The translations under genes were made by a program, and so were the position numbers. Positions 10,665-19,079 of a stretch of DNA of 33,230 bases are shown in pieces; within the stretch, counting starts at the first letter, position 1, and each line of letters starts with the position of its first letter. The stretch is from positions 1 through 33,230 of the forward strand of contig JAIFLP010000167.1 in NCBI GenBank assembly GCA_020049015.1. The letters are read 5' to 3'. This stretch comes from Bacteroidota bacterium. GTDB taxonomy: Bacteria > Bacteroidota > Bacteroidia > Bacteroidales > DTGW01. The notes beneath the pieces are model-generated. The model saw only the letters and a list, made by a program, of their open reading frames with translations, was not told the DNA's origin and ran no database searches.

Positions 10665-12719
10665 TTAGTTATAATTGGGTAAAAACGAGTATTTTTCTGA
10701 GTATTTAATCATTTGTTTAATATAATCATTAGGATAAATAACTTGAATATCTTTTATTTTACCATTTTCAATAACAGGAACGAATTCAGGATTTATAAAA
10801 CCGTTGTATGGAGCCAAATTCAATGCTTTGTAACGGGTAAGAATTTCGCTATGCAAATCATAATCAATTTCAATACCATATTTTTCCACCAATGCTTTAC
10901 CCGCATTGTAGTCGCCTTCCGATTTTATTCTTTGCACTTCTGCCAATAATTGACCAAATAAGATTCTTAATTTCTCGAAGTCATTTACTTTTACAAATGT
11001 TTTATTTTCTCTTTTAAAAACCTCAATCACATTTTCTGCTTTTCCTTTTTCATAACACCATTTGGAAACTAACTGGCGGTTGCGCATGTGGGCTTGTTCC
11101 ACATTCTTTCCTAATTCAATTCGCACCAATTGAGTGAGCAAACCATTTCGTATATAGGATGTATATTCAGCTTTGGCAACATCTAGCTTATCTATGATTC
11201 CCAAATCAATCATTTTATTATCCATAATATAATACAAGGCAAAAAGGTCGGCGCGCGCTTCTTCTAAAGGAGAATGAAAACTTTTTAGAGCATGTGAACT
11301 AACACCTGGCAACAATTGTCCAGAGCCATGGCCTAAGCATTCATGCAGGTCGGTATGCAGATTTCCAGCAAGTCCGCCATGTTTTCTGATTAAATCTATT
11401 TCAATGCTATCAGCAGCAAATTCTTCAAGGAAACCACTCGATAGTGAAGCTTTTTCATATGCTTCGGTAATATTTTGAATGCTTACTGATTTTGAACCAT
11501 AATTTTTTCGAACCCAATCAGAATTTGGTAAGTTAATTCCAATAGGAGTTGTAGGATAACAATCACCTCCCAATTGTGCAACGGTTATTACCTTTGCGGT
11601 TACTCCTTTAACTTCAGTTTTCTTAAAACGTGTATCAACTGGTGAATGGTCTTCAAACCACTGAGCATTCTTACTTATTATTTCGGTTCGGCGGGTAGCT
11701 TCAATATTTTTAAAGTTCACGACCGATTCCCACGTTGCTCTCATGGCAAGCGGATCGCCATATACTTCAATAAAGCCATTTATAAAGTCAATATGACTAT
11801 TTACGTCTTGTACCCATAGAATACTATATTTATCAAAGGTCTCAAGATCGCCACTCTCATAATATTTAATTAATGATTCAATTACATTTTTCTGTTGTTC
11901 ATTTTCAGCTACAACAACCGCTTTTTTAAGCCAAAAAATAATCTTTTCAATAGCGGGTGAATACATGCCATTCAACTTCCATACTTTTTCATTAATGACT
12001 CCATTTTCTTTGATAAGTTTTGAGTTGAGACCGTATGAAATTGGGCTTGTGTCGGCCTCATTCTTGACGGTTTTATAAAACTGTTCAACTTCAGATTGGC
12101 TTACACCTTCATAAAAATTGTTTGCAGAATTCTTAACCACATCGGCGTCTGCATCTTGCAAAACGCGCTTTTTATCAAGTTCTGGATTAAAAATATATTC
12201 TGTAATCCTCAATTTAAATGAATCGATACTTTCGTTTTTCAATAAAGGAAGCTTTTTTAGGTCTGAATGATCTATTAAGAGCAATAAATAATCTTTTGAA
12301 AAACCGGGCATGAATTTTTCTGTAGAATAGTGGTGGTGTATACCATTGGAGAACCAAACTCTTTTTAAATAAATCAGAAAGTTTTTATATTCCTCCGTTG
12401 AGGTGTCCCCTGAATAGCTCTGGTACACATTTTCCAGGCAGCGTCGGATGGTTAAATTGTGTTTATAGTGTTGATCAAATAATATATCCCTTCCGCAAAG
12501 TGCTGCTTCGCTGAGGTAGTAGATCAGTTCTTTTTGTTGTAAACTCAGAGAGTCGAACCCAGGCACTCTATAGCGTAAAACCCTGCAATCGGCAAATTGT
12601 TCCACTACGTAATCAAATTCTTCAACTTCATTTCTCATATCCTCATTTTTATTGCTGCTACAAGCACTATTTAGCCAAGCCATAACGTATAGTATTATTA
12701 TTATTTGAAAAAAACGCAT
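10665..12719 (-). CDS. Dipeptidyl-peptidase III-like (M49) metallopeptidase, predicted lipoprotein
   Basis: 684 aa; zinc motif HECLGH (HEXXGH) with downstream EEARAD; lipobox MRFFQIIIILYVMAWLNSAC. Confidence 0.9.
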   Translation of the reverse strand: MRFFQIIIILYVMAWLNSACSSNKNEDMRNEVEEFDYVVEQFADCRVLRYRVPGFDSLSLQQKELIYYLSEAALCGRDILFDQHYKHNLTIRRCLENVYQSYSGDTSTEEYKNFLIYLKRVWFSNGIHHHYSTEKFMPGFSKDYLLLLIDHSDLKKLPLLKNESIDSFKLRITEYIFNPELDKKRVLQDADADVVKNSANNFYEGVSQSEVEQFYKTVKNEADTSPISYGLNSKLIKENGVINEKVWKLNGMYSPAIEKIIFWLKKAVVVAENEQQKNVIESLIKYYESGDLETFDKYSILWVQDVNSHIDFINGFIEVYGDPLAMRATWESVVNFKNIEATRRTEIISKNAQWFEDHSPVDTRFKKTEVKGVTAKVITVAQLGGDCYPTTPIGINLPNSDWVRKNYGSKSVSIQNITEAYEKASLSSGFLEEFAADSIEIDLIRKHGGLAGNLHTDLHECLGHGSGQLLPGVSSHALKSFHSPLEEARADLFALYYIMDNKMIDLGIIDKLDVAKAEYTSYIRNGLLTQLVRIELGKNVEQAHMRNRQLVSKWCYEKGKAENVIEVFKRENKTFVKVNDFEKLRILFGQLLAEVQRIKSEGDYNAGKALVEKYGIEIDYDLHSEILTRYKALNLAPYNGFINPEFVPVIENGKIKDIQVIYPNDYIKQMIKYSEKYSFLPNYN

Positions 12720-12842
12720 ACATCTTAATTTTGTTACTAACTGTGAGTGTAAATATCAGAAATTATTCTTAATAATCAAAGCAAGTATGAGGTAATAGCA
12801 AATAAATCTTTTAGTTGAGCCATTAATTATTATCTTTATTAT

Positions 12843-12910
12843 AACTCATAACTTAAAACTCATAACTTATAACTTATAACTTAAAACTCATAACTCATAA
12901 TTTATAACTC
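12843..12910. repeat. Degenerate heptanucleotide tandem array (AACTYAW)n
   Basis: AACTCAT AACTTAA AACTCAT AACTTAT AACTTAT AACTTAA AACTCAT AACTCAT AATTTAT AACTC: about 9.7 units with exact 7-bp period. Confidence 0.95.
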
Positions 12911-12938
12911 TTTTTATAGCGTAACTAAAAATAATTTT

Positions 12939-12946
12939 TATCTTTG
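12939..12946 (+). promoter_or_regulatory. Bacteroidetes -7 box (TATCTTTG) for the corA leader transcript
   Basis: Exact TAnnTTTG, 28 nt upstream of the leader ORF start. Confidence 0.6.
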
Positions 12947-12973
12947 CCACGATAATCAATACATAGTTTTATT

Positions 12974-13027
12974 ATGGACGATGGACCTGATCTTGAGATA
13001 AGTATTAATCCCACACCTTTAAGGTAG
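12974..13027 (+). CDS. Candidate corA leader peptide MDDGPDLEISINPTPLR
   Basis: 17 codons + TAG between a -7 box and corA; acidic/Pro-rich; its last codons overlap one arm of a 10-bp helix with the anti-SD element. Confidence 0.55.
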   Translation: MDDGPDLEISINPTPLR

Positions 13028-13072
13028 CCGTCTGATTTTTCGACCCTCCTTGAAGGTTTAAACATAGGAGGT
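13015..13072 (+). promoter_or_regulatory. Candidate translational switch controlling corA (mutually exclusive helices, SD sequestration)
   Basis: ACCTTTAAGG (13015-13024) pairs with CCTTGAAGGT (13048-13057), 10 bp with one G-U; alternatively CCTCCT (13045-13050) pairs with SD AGGAGG (13066-13071). Confidence 0.5.
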
Positions 13073-13076
13073 GACC

Positions 13077-14006
13077 ATGATTACTATCTGGAAACAAAAA
13101 GAAGTTTTACAACAAATCCAAAAGTTTGAGCGCAATTGCTGGGTAAACGTAATTAATCCTACTCAGGACGAAATTCTACGTTTGATTACAGAACTGCGTG
13201 TACCCGATTATTTTATTTCCGACATCCTTGATATTGACGAAAGATCGCGTATTGAAAATGACGTCCGCTGGTTCATGATCATTACCCGTATACCAATTTA
13301 CCGTTTCGATAATAATGTGCCTTTTGTTACTGTACCTCAGGGTATTCTAATCAGCGCCCATTCCATTATTACTATTTGTATATCCGACAATGAAATTATT
13401 AATGATTTAATAAACCCATTACGATACAGAACGGTTAGTTTGACTAATAAAGTGAATTTTGTACTCGAGATTTTTCTTCGCTCTGCAACCCAATATCTAA
13501 AATACCTGAAAGAAATTAATATACTTACCAACGAAATAGAAAAGGAATTAGAGAAATCGACTAAAAACAAGGAGCTTCACAAATTATTAAAGATGGAGAA
13601 GTGCTTAGTTTATTTTATAACCTCTATAAAATCAAATGATTTATTGTTGTTTAAATTGCAAAAATCAAGATTCTTGACCTTTGGAGAGGTAGATGAAGAT
13701 TTATTGGATGATGTGCAGATTGAGATAAAGCAAGCCTTGGAGACCGCTCAAATATACAGCGATATTCAGTCTGGGTTGATGGATGCCTTTGCTTCTGTTA
13801 TATCTAATAATTTGAACGTGGTGATGAAGCAACTTACTGCCATTACCATTTTACTTATGATTCCCAATCTGATTGCAGGATTTTTTGGGATGAATGTTAT
13901 CAATTTTCTGGAAGATAATAAATATGCCATGACCTATATCCTTGCCGGATCATCGATACTTGCTGTTCTAGGCTTTATGATCTTTAAAAAGAGGGACTGG
14001 TTCTAA
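13077..14006 (+). CDS. corA: CorA-family magnesium/divalent cation transporter
   Basis: Two C-terminal TM helices with GFFGMN signature. Track starts at GTG 13071; ATG 13077, 5 nt after AGGAGG, is the more likely start. Confidence 0.92.
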   Translation: MITIWKQKEVLQQIQKFERNCWVNVINPTQDEILRLITELRVPDYFISDILDIDERSRIENDVRWFMIITRIPIYRFDNNVPFVTVPQGILISAHSIITICISDNEIINDLINPLRYRTVSLTNKVNFVLEIFLRSATQYLKYLKEINILTNEIEKELEKSTKNKELHKLLKMEKCLVYFITSIKSNDLLLFKLQKSRFLTFGEVDEDLLDDVQIEIKQALETAQIYSDIQSGLMDAFASVISNNLNVVMKQLTAITILLMIPNLIAGFFGMNVINFLEDNKYAMTYILAGSSILAVLGFMIFKKRDWF

Positions 14007-15834: not shown

Positions 15835-17097
15835 TTATTTATTTGTATGTATGATTATGCCTTTAGCCCAATTTTTTTTTGCTGTTTCAAGAAGTGGTAA
15901 ATCACTGCTTTTGCGCAGTAAAACATATACTTCGTTGCTTAATTGGGTATCTATTCTTTTAAAAATGAAATACTGATCTTTTCCGGAGTACTTATACATC
16001 CACTTTTCTTCATTATTAGCTTTCATTACCGATACAGGGGGACCTAATAGAATAAATACCATACCCCTATCGGTTTTCCATCCTTCCTGCCAATCAGAAA
16101 AATAGTAATTAGCCAGTTCAACTCTGTTGTAATATATCTTGATAAGTTCTTTTGCCTTGTCTTCTGCATTATTGTATATTGATAACCAGAATCTATCAAA
16201 AGATTTTTTTGGGTTTTCATTTTCTTTCATGTCTCTATATGCAGTTGAATCCATTATATAGATTAGGGCCTCTGACATTTCATCTATACCTGACATGCGG
16301 GGAAATGAGCTTCCCACAACATTAATTGTTTTCCCTTTTTGTAAATCAGGTTTCACAGAGAATAGATATGTTCCTTTTTTCTCTAATGAAAGTATTGATG
16401 AATCATTATATGGCAGTTTATAATCTTTATATATAACTGGATGTATCAATGTTTTGGCTTGTGAATCTATTTGATTGTATCCAGGTTGATGTGGTTCAAA
16501 ATACGCTACATATAAACTGTCGGGCTGTTTTTTTGCATATAGGAGCAAAAAATTCTCATTAACTTGTATATAAGGTTTTGCCAAATTGTTCATTGTAGAT
16601 GGATTGATGAGCAAGTAATTAGATGATGAATAAATACCTTGCTTGTCTATTTGCATAAAATGATGGTTTCGTTTTGAGTTTCCGGCATCGGCATAAATAA
16701 CATGTAGAATATAAGTATTGTTATATATACATTTAATTGGAATGCGAAATATTACTTCATCTTTTATTTTTGATTTGTCAACCTGAAACAAATAGCTGCC
16801 GCTGTCACTGCTCGAGCCTAGAATATTCTTTTCATTTATTAAACGATAGCTAACCCATATTTTGCCAATTTTTGTTCCTTGTTTATCAGCAGTAAAAACT
16901 ATGTTTGATGTATTGCAGTATATATTTATATTACTTATGCTATCGTTGGAGTGATACATTGTAAATATAGGACGAAGCGTATTTTCAAGAGGTTGATAAA
17001 GCTTAAAGTGCGAATTGTCATTTGTTTTTACAGCTTTTTTATTGCAGGAATAAGCTGTAAATATCAGAATAAATATGAATAAAGGTACTATTTTCAT
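15835..17097 (-). CDS. GWxTD domain-containing lipoprotein
   Basis: 420 aa; 'DWQEGWKTDRGMVFILLGPP' carries GWxTD; lipobox 'LIFTAYSC'. Confidence 0.85.
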   Translation of the reverse strand: MKIVPLFIFILIFTAYSCNKKAVKTNDNSHFKLYQPLENTLRPIFTMYHSNDSISNINIYCNTSNIVFTADKQGTKIGKIWVSYRLINEKNILGSSSDSGSYLFQVDKSKIKDEVIFRIPIKCIYNNTYILHVIYADAGNSKRNHHFMQIDKQGIYSSSNYLLINPSTMNNLAKPYIQVNENFLLLYAKKQPDSLYVAYFEPHQPGYNQIDSQAKTLIHPVIYKDYKLPYNDSSILSLEKKGTYLFSVKPDLQKGKTINVVGSSFPRMSGIDEMSEALIYIMDSTAYRDMKENENPKKSFDRFWLSIYNNAEDKAKELIKIYYNRVELANYYFSDWQEGWKTDRGMVFILLGPPVSVMKANNEEKWMYKYSGKDQYFIFKRIDTQLSNEVYVLLRKSSDLPLLETAKKNWAKGIIIHTNK

Positions 17098-19079
17098 TTG
17101 TTCTTGTTAATTAAATCATCTACTTCCATTTGATATAATTCCCAATGCGACATTTCTACATGCAACTGCTTTTCAAAATTGGAGTAGGTGTCAAAAATAC
17201 TATCTTTTCCTTCATATTTTTCCAGCAATTCAGGTTCGGCCATAATTTTTGATAAATGGGCTATTTTTTCTTCCAGCTGTTGTATTTTTTCTTCACTTTC
17301 CTTTACTTTATTTTGAGCTTTTCTAATAATTTTATCCCATTCTTTCTTATCGGCGTAGTTGTTTTTTTTGTCAACAATTTTAGTTTCGGCAATCACCACT
17401 TTGGCTTTTGTCTCTTGAATTGGGATAACTTTTTTATCCTCAATTATATTCAATTCGTTTAGATGACTTAGTTTCTTTTTTTCTAAAAATTCGTAAATAC
17501 CTCCTAAGAATTCTTTTGTTTTACCTTCTTTAAATTCATAAATTTTATTTACCAAACCATCGAGAAATTCACGGTCGTGACTAACTATTATTAACGTGCC
17601 TTCATAATTAATTAAAGATTGCTTTAGAATTTCTTTTGAACGCATATCAAGATGATTGGTTGGTTCATCAAGTACTAATAAATTATAAGGTTCTAATAAT
17701 AATTTAGCAATTGCCAATCTTGACCGCTCTCCTCCTGAAAGCACCTTCACTTTTTTTAGAACATCATCGCCCCTGAATAAAAAAGCTCCTAAAATGTCGC
17801 GTATTTTATTCCTTATTTCTCCTACAGCAACTCTATCAATGGTGTCAAATACAGTGCAATTCTCGTCCATTAATTCATCTTGATTTTGGGCAAAGTATCC
17901 AAGCTTAACATTATGACCGGGAGTTACTGTGCCTGTAGAATCAATTTCTTTAACAATTATTTTTGATAGGGTAGACTTTCCTTCGCCATTTTTTCCTACA
18001 AATGCTATTCTGTCGCCCGATTCAACTTTTAAGTCAATTCCATTCAGTACTATTTTTTCACCATATTTTTTTCCAACATTAAGTATGTCAAGTACGATTC
18101 TTCCTGATTTTACTGGAGTGGGAAATCTCATGTGAATTGAGCTGGTATCTTCTTCTTCTATTTCTATACGGTCAATTTTATCTAGTTGTTTTATTCTCGA
18201 TTGCACCTGTACCGCTTTAGATGCTTTATATCTAAATCTGTCAATAAAATCTTCAGTATCCTGAATCATTTTTTGTTGATTTCGAAAGGAAGATTCTTGC
18301 ACCTCTCTTCTTTCTTTACGAAGCACAACGTACTTGCTGTAGTTTGCTTTATAATCATAAATTTTACCCAAACTAATTTCAACCGTTCTATTGGTAACAT
18401 TATCTAAAAATGCTTTGTCGTGCGACACTAGAACAACGGCACCTTCATAATTTTTTAGGTAGTCTTCCAGCCATTGAATTGATTCAATATCTAGGTGATT
18501 AGTTGGTTCGTCTAATAAAAATACATCAGGTTTTTTTAACAATAGTTTAGCCAATTCAACCCGCATTCTCCATCCACCGCTAAATTCCTTTACATATCTA
18601 TTGAAGTCATGGCTTGTAAAACCCAAGCCTAATAATGTTTTTTCTACATTACCATGGATACTATGACCACCCATCAATTCAAATTGTTCAATGCAATCGT
18701 GGTGTTCTTCTATTAATTTTAAATAGGCTGATGATTCATAGTCAGTTCTTTCAGAAAGTGAAAATGACAGTTTTTCTATTTTTCGTTCCAAATCAAGAAT
18801 TTCAGAAAAGGCAACATAGGCTTCTTCAATGATGGTTTTGCTTGAGGTAATGGCTATTTGTTGAGGAAGGTACCCTACGGTAATATCAGGTGATTTGGAA
18901 ATGGTTCCTGAAGTGGGTTCTTGCAAACCTGAAATTATTTTTAACAAAGTAGACTTGCCCGCTCCATTTTTTCCAGTAAGCCCTATCCGGTCACGGGCAT
19001 TAACCATAAAGGAAACATCGTTAAATAAATTAAAACCACCAAATGAAACAGTTAATTGTCCTATAGAAATCATGTACAC
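17094..19079 (-). CDS. ABC-F family ATP-binding protein
   Basis: 661 aa; duplicated ATPase domains with Walker A GKNGAGKST/GKNGEGKST, signatures FSGGWRMRVELAKLLL and LSGGERSRLAIAKLLL, LLDEPTNHLD twice, no TM domain. Confidence 0.95.
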   Translation of the reverse strand: MYMISIGQLTVSFGGFNLFNDVSFMVNARDRIGLTGKNGAGKSTLLKIISGLQEPTSGTISKSPDITVGYLPQQIAITSSKTIIEEAYVAFSEILDLERKIEKLSFSLSERTDYESSAYLKLIEEHHDCIEQFELMGGHSIHGNVEKTLLGLGFTSHDFNRYVKEFSGGWRMRVELAKLLLKKPDVFLLDEPTNHLDIESIQWLEDYLKNYEGAVVLVSHDKAFLDNVTNRTVEISLGKIYDYKANYSKYVVLRKERREVQESSFRNQQKMIQDTEDFIDRFRYKASKAVQVQSRIKQLDKIDRIEIEEEDTSSIHMRFPTPVKSGRIVLDILNVGKKYGEKIVLNGIDLKVESGDRIAFVGKNGEGKSTLSKIIVKEIDSTGTVTPGHNVKLGYFAQNQDELMDENCTVFDTIDRVAVGEIRNKIRDILGAFLFRGDDVLKKVKVLSGGERSRLAIAKLLLEPYNLLVLDEPTNHLDMRSKEILKQSLINYEGTLIIVSHDREFLDGLVNKIYEFKEGKTKEFLGGIYEFLEKKKLSHLNELNIIEDKKVIPIQETKAKVVIAETKIVDKKNNYADKKEWDKIIRKAQNKVKESEEKIQQLEEKIAHLSKIMAEPELLEKYEGKDSIFDTYSNFEKQLHVEMSHWELYQMEVDDLINKNK

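Follow-up and report, generated by a model that had tools for sequence, protein, structure and literature searches.

The sequence upstream of corA in a Bacteroidota contig probably encodes a Mg2+-responsive leader-peptide attenuator that acts on translation of the Mg2+ importer. The window, that is, the whole stretch of DNA that was analyzed (33,230 nt, contig JAIFLP010000167.1), contains a short leader ORF followed by two mutually exclusive helices (Table 1). At the level of sequence, comparison of related loci shows a conserved leader with constrained residues, two covarying alternative helices, a maintained geometry and restriction of the targets to Mg2+ transport. The promoter box, the leader ORF, both helices and the corA ATG were read directly and lie, exact to the base, where the initial annotation had placed them. 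A tandem repeat with unit TTATAACTTATAACTTAAAACTCATAAC and a period of 7/14/28 occupies positions 12839-12910, just 5′ of the corA promoter.

Table 1. Components of the element upstream of corA in the window
Feature	Position	Strand	Description
-7 box TATCTTTG	12939..12946	+	Bacteroidota-type box of the leader promoter, 27 nt 5′ of the leader ATG
Leader ORF MDDGPDLEISINPTPLR	12974..13027	+	17 codons + TAG; read directly; conserved portion MDDGP
Arm 1 ACCTTTAAGG	13015..13024	+	End of leader ORF; forms helix A with arm 2 (proposed ON form)
Arm 2 CCTCCTTGAAGGT	13045..13057	+	Pairs with arm 3 through its 5′ part and with arm 1 through its 3′ part; 13048-13050 common to both helices
Arm 3 AGGAGG	13066..13071	+	corA Shine-Dalgarno; forms helix B with arm 2 (proposed OFF form)
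Helix A	13015-13024 with 13048-13057	+	ACCTTTAAGG with CCTTGAAGGT; 10 bp including one G-U
Helix B	13045-13050 with 13066-13071	+	CCTCCT with AGGAGG; 6 bp
Full element, covariance model R1	12974..13079	+	E 0.0013, 33.7 bits; model built without the window
corA (predicted regulated gene)	13077..14006	+	ATG at 13077; 309 aa; PF01544 E 5e-45; TIGR00383 E 9e-29, under the equivalog cut-off

The leader peptide is conserved and constrained at its acidic start

We gathered 80 corA loci by CorA protein sequence alone (49-61% identity to the query), and 77 of these carry an upstream mini-ORF that has 11-25 codons and an acidic start. All 10 loci added from a search of relatives, the window included, also have a leader ORF. 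Loss of the leader and both helices from orthologous loci had been named beforehand as grounds for abandoning the proposal made in the initial annotation; instead, the leader is kept and both helices covary (see below). The commonest form of the leader is MDEGPYHSKLKY; the window has MDDGP, and one subgroup has MDDYHASR. Of 117 leaders, 113 have a TAnnTTTG-like box on their 5′ side, in most cases at a distance of 24-28 nt from the ATG. Each of the 72 leaders of the main type has at least two acidic residues among residues 2-4, with the identity and position of these residues varying (MDEGP, MEEDP, MESDP and MEADP), and 69 of them have a proline at position 5 (Pro5); the remainder of these 72 leaders after the N-terminal part is mostly net basic. 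Across codons 2-5, pN/pS was 0.38 in frame as compared with 1.27 and 0.78 in the other frames. This in-frame constraint on acidity points to selection on a peptide. The acidic start is also kept in leaders that precede mgtE and mgtA (MKDDP and MNDDP).

The likeness to MgtL suggested by the initial annotation survives in part: an acidic start, usually with Pro5, is found family-wide. The 'PTPL' of the window leader, which had been counted toward the same likeness, is absent from relatives, even within the family, and is probably a coincidence because those codons belong to arm 1.

The prevalence of Pro5, together with the response of Salmonella mgtM and mgtP (mgtCBRU operon) to ATP and charged tRNA-Pro (PMC8092293), raises the alternative that the attenuator senses a cue other than Mg2+ through the speed of translation, such as proline or charged tRNA, EF-P activity or general translation stress, with the Mg2+ transporters merely its targets. 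We consider this distinctly unlikely, as the main group has a single proline and no Pro-Pro, Pro5 varies more than the acidic pair and is missing from the MDDYH subgroup, acidity is the only constant, and the targets are all Mg2+-transport genes.

Three loci with a more distant corA have 8-9 codon leaders of a different type (L089, MDDYHPDS; L090, MDDYHPEID; L093, MDDYPPER); their three-arm layout is similar and their arm sequences are unrelated.

Two alternative helices covary and link the leader to the corA initiation region

Across the family, arm 1 begins near the leader stop codon in most loci and arm 3 holds the corA Shine-Dalgarno (SD) sequence, while arm 2 is complementary to both, so that the 1:2 and 2:3 pairings are mutually exclusive. 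In the window the two helices are staggered, with a 3-nt overlap. When the leader and SD were fixed and the spacer was shuffled with dinucleotides preserved, no overlapping helix pair matching that of the window in strength appeared in 400 shuffles, so that the arrangement exceeds chance expectation. A stricter test, in which both helices must use the same middle k-mer, gave no significant result for the window alone, with 69 of 100 shuffles as good, because its helices are staggered. The staggered layout recurs in three loci of the same family as the window (L082, L084 and L085); a fourth, L083, is marginal (18/400). Overall, 104 of 117 loci have an overlapping helix pair stronger than expected from the shuffles (p≤0.05). 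Minimum free energy folding of the window alone was unremarkable (z 0.03 and -1.35), and therefore the real evidence is comparative.

In an alignment of 66 sequences, 89.8% of the cells of helix A are paired as compared with 42-56% in slid controls, and 9 of its 10 pairs show two-sided changes; for helix B the corresponding values are 86.2% and 37-54%, and 8 of 10 pairs show such changes. Covariation among related corA upstream regions, the check proposed in the initial annotation, is thus seen for both alternative helices. One further pairing was considered, between the Gly-Pro codons (GGCCC) and a GGGC after arm 1; by eye it proved inconsistent where the codon varies (GACCC rows), and it was rejected.

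Alternative helices and metal-transport targets are typical of riboswitches too, and a ligand-binding riboswitch (for Mg2+ or a different metal) with a short ORF lying by chance in its first half would account for both. This seems to us very improbable. The conserved block is protein-coding, with its constraint on acidity in frame, and the stretches of RNA that separate the arms are short, vary between loci and show no conserved core like that of an aptamer. Rfam, named as a check in the initial annotation, was searched: no regulatory family, the M-box and other Mg2+ sensors included, matches the window. At the gathering score the covariance models gave no hit in the window and, in 20 related loci, only one tRNA gene (L012). 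A permissive search of 12900-13120 returned sub-threshold chance matches only.

Placement of ribosomes on the leader agrees with the logic put forward in the initial annotation, in which a finished leader blocks arm 1. With a ribosome on the leader stop codon, half or more of arm 1 would lie under it in 111 of 113 loci, and a ribosome at codon 5 stops short of arm 1 in all 113. When folding was repeated with these positions occluded, moving the ribosome from codon 5 to the stop codon lowered SD accessibility by >0.2 in 37 loci, with no locus showing an increase; in the window the value went from 0.41 to 0.01. As a predictor of ON and OFF states, equilibrium folding is consistent in direction and weak in magnitude because most loci keep the SD mainly paired with no ribosome present (mean accessibility 0.13). 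Of the two hairpins, helix B is the stronger in 73 of 113 loci, and reaching the ON state must therefore depend, as a rule, on helix A folding first while the RNA is being transcribed. In the window, helix A is the stronger (-10.8 versus -7.2 kcal/mol for B).

Leader translation could also govern Rho-dependent or intrinsic termination before corA, with pairing of the SD being secondary, and in E. coli and Salmonella the corA and mgtA leaders do end in Rho-dependent termination (PMC11552253). We regard a transcriptional output of this kind as unlikely here: positions 12700-13200 of the window hold no intrinsic terminator, a U-rich run follows the hairpins in just 5 of 117 loci, and arm 3 coincides with the initiation region in nearly all loci and covaries in its pairing.

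The element precedes four unrelated classes of Mg2+-transport genes

A covariance model (R1) was built from 66 corA leaders, with the window excluded. Searched against 393 genomes of the order, R1 returned 41 matches, the window among them as the sole match in its genome, and all 41 precede Mg2+-transport genes: 16 corA, 18 mgtE, 6 genes with PRC, MgtE_N and CBS domains and 1 mgtA. Some of the corA matches are training loci, and the 25 non-corA matches are independent of training. One mgtE call was checked against NCBIfam (TIGR00400, 405 bits) and the others were made by evident sequence similarity; the mgtA target matches TIGR01524 with 1222 bits. A class-wide search added two further matches, both before PRC/MgtE_N/CBS and Nramp-related genes, and R1 found nothing beyond the window in a 386-genome sample of the phylum. 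A DNA pattern for MDEGPYH had no matches in 295 genomes of a class sample and 396 of a phylum sample because these samples contain few members of the order.

An acidic/Pro5 leader within 160 nt upstream was present for 95 of 112 targets as compared with 2 of 461 background genes, and both of the latter belong to PRC/Nramp-related operons already found by R1. Some mgtE homologues have no leader (L158 and L161-L163). Four unrelated transport families thus share one leader, and Mg2+ import is the one evident thing that they have in common; the occurrence of the element before four unrelated Mg2+-transport classes therefore makes Mg2+ sensing very likely. The Mg2+ hypothesis of the initial annotation, framed on corA, gains independent support from the same element before mgtE, mgtA and the PRC/MgtE_N/CBS-Nramp-related operons.

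Of the PRC-type loci, six in all, four have as their next gene an Nramp-family member that carries the NRMT motif DxxG...TxxA; in L147 the Nramp-family gene is not directly next, and one other contig ends too soon. The NRMT binding-site motif DxxG...TxxA/T, which replaces the standard Nramp motif (PMC8806188), takes the form DAGG and TTIA in the Nramp proteins encoded at six loci (L144, L149, L151, L152, L164 and L165). The same six loci conserve a two-gene operon in which a PRC-barrel, MgtE_N and CBS protein is followed by the Nramp-related transporter. By its domain content, this arrangement suggests an MgtE-like cytosolic sensor domain partnering an Nramp-type Mg2+ transporter.

Five relatives from the window's family (L082, L083, L084, L085 and L001) have a small ORF of ~28-45 aa, basic and hydrophobic (e.g. 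MFKRNFLRFFIWQVKGLRQQAAKQLLHRHFFGSCF), between the leader and corA. It lies about 70-160 nt after the leader, and corA follows at 200-285 nt. The switch feeds this small ORF in four of the five and probably in the fifth, L001, where no helix pair was found; the ORF is possibly a small protein under the same control.

Proposed model for control of CorA synthesis by leader translation

On the strength of the conserved leader and its targets, the element very probably senses Mg2+ through the ease with which ribosomes finish the peptide. In ample Mg2+, the leader would be finished and the ribosome at its stop codon would cover arm 1; arm 2 would then pair with arm 3, the corA initiation region would be hidden and CorA synthesis would be low. 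When Mg2+ is scarce, the nascent M-D-D/E-G-P start is predicted to make ribosomes dissociate after about five codons (intrinsic ribosome destabilization). The aborted leader would leave arm 1 free to pair with the emerging arm 2, and the corA initiation region would be exposed. We infer Mg2+ to be the signal, ribosome drop-off the sensing step and translation the output; the direction, with completion as OFF and abortion at low Mg2+ as ON, would follow by analogy with known leaders. Weighing against the model are the pairing of the SD at equilibrium in most loci and the greater strength of helix B in many of them, the lack of Pro5 in the MDDYH subgroup, the small ORF that precedes corA in relatives from the window's family, and the mgtE homologues that have no leader.

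In leaders of the MgtL/mgtQ kind, ribosome drop-off at low Mg2+ is counteracted by bL31, and the gene for bL31 is present in the window's genome. An ABC-F family gene lies a few genes beyond corA (17094-19079, minus strand; 401 bits, under the EttA/ChvD cut-off). In E. coli, ABC-F proteins such as EttA relieve ribosome destabilization on acidic starts. A link between the ABC-F gene of the window and the leader switch is speculative.

Relation to known Mg2+-responsive leaders

Sensing of Mg2+ by ribosome drop-off on an acidic nascent chain was known before from enterobacteria. The EPDP start of E. coli MgtL causes drop-off at low Mg2+ (Chadani et al. 2017, as cited in PMC11282234 and PMC11552253), and stalling of MgtL at Pro3 is rescued by EttA (PMC11282234). 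As these two citing papers present it, MgtL-mgtA of E. coli and Salmonella shares with the present element an acidic/Pro N-terminus, a basic C-terminus and a downstream Mg2+ transporter, as well as OFF control by efficient leader translation, which is proposed here. By the same accounts, MgtL acts through Rho-dependent termination in a large leader RNA, whereas the element described here spans ~100 nt, has three arms and would sequester the initiation region.

Salmonella mgtQ, like MgtL, works by intrinsic ribosome destabilization; abortion of this 8-codon acidic uORF, with its Asp2 and Glu5, frees the mgtB RBS (Choi et al. 2021, PMC8092293). That system resembles ours in its very short acidic uORF before a Mg2+ transporter, in its alternative stem-loops and in the release of the transporter RBS by uORF abortion, which is predicted here, as is the translational output. 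It differs in having four arms (1:2 and 3:4 versus 2:3), in being intergenic within one enterobacterial operon and in serving one transporter class, whereas the present element precedes four. Furthermore, mgtB falls when the mgtQ start codon is lost (PMC8092293), whereas loss of leader translation is predicted here to raise corA. Enterobacterial CorL-corA also has a uORF before corA, and in E. coli translation of corL inversely tracks corA in a Mg2+-dependent manner (PMC11552253). Compared by its published description alone, CorL has a UUG start, fewer acidic and Pro residues, a three-way junction and a Rho output (PMC11552253).

In the literature covered, largely open-access journal articles, we found no description of the element in Bacteroidota. 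What is new here is that, in a phylum other than that of the enterobacteria, a compact element of ~100 nt recurs upstream of four unrelated classes of Mg2+-transport gene. Its recurrence suggests that how stably ribosomes translate acidic starts serves generally as a gauge of Mg2+, and the element provides both a sequence signature for spotting Mg2+-controlled genes and a small reporter for testing the gauge idea.

Strong SD sequences in a phylum reported to ignore them

Bacteroidia ribosomes are reported to ignore the SD, with bS21, bS18 and bS6 holding the 16S tail (McNutt et al. 2023, PMC9976891). On that account, the effect of exposing an SD is uncertain, which weighs against the attenuator model favored above and raises the question of why Mg2+-transport genes carry strong SDs at all. 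Among the 22 window genes examined, corA is the only one that bears an SD-like sequence, in agreement with SD-less initiation in the phylum. An AGGA, GGAG or GAGG core was found in 104 of 112 switch targets as compared with 128 of 449 background genes, a background that includes most of those targets. Either arm 3 matters by hiding the start region, or ribosomes with a free anti-SD read these genes.

A double Mg2+ gate specific to Bacteroidota, in which abortion of the nascent chain and unmasking of the anti-SD both report Mg2+, would combine leader control with SD use, and we put it forward as an unlikely extension of the model. The exposed strong SD would be read mainly by the ribosome subpopulation with a free anti-SD, and low Mg2+ would, speculatively, also strip bS21 from ribosomes. 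Autoregulation of rpsU in Bacteroidota is similar in relying on a rare strong SD in a phylum otherwise without SD use; it responds to ribosomes that lack bS21, and the accessible part of that report describes neither a leader peptide nor alternative hairpins (PMC9976891). The window's genome encodes bS21.
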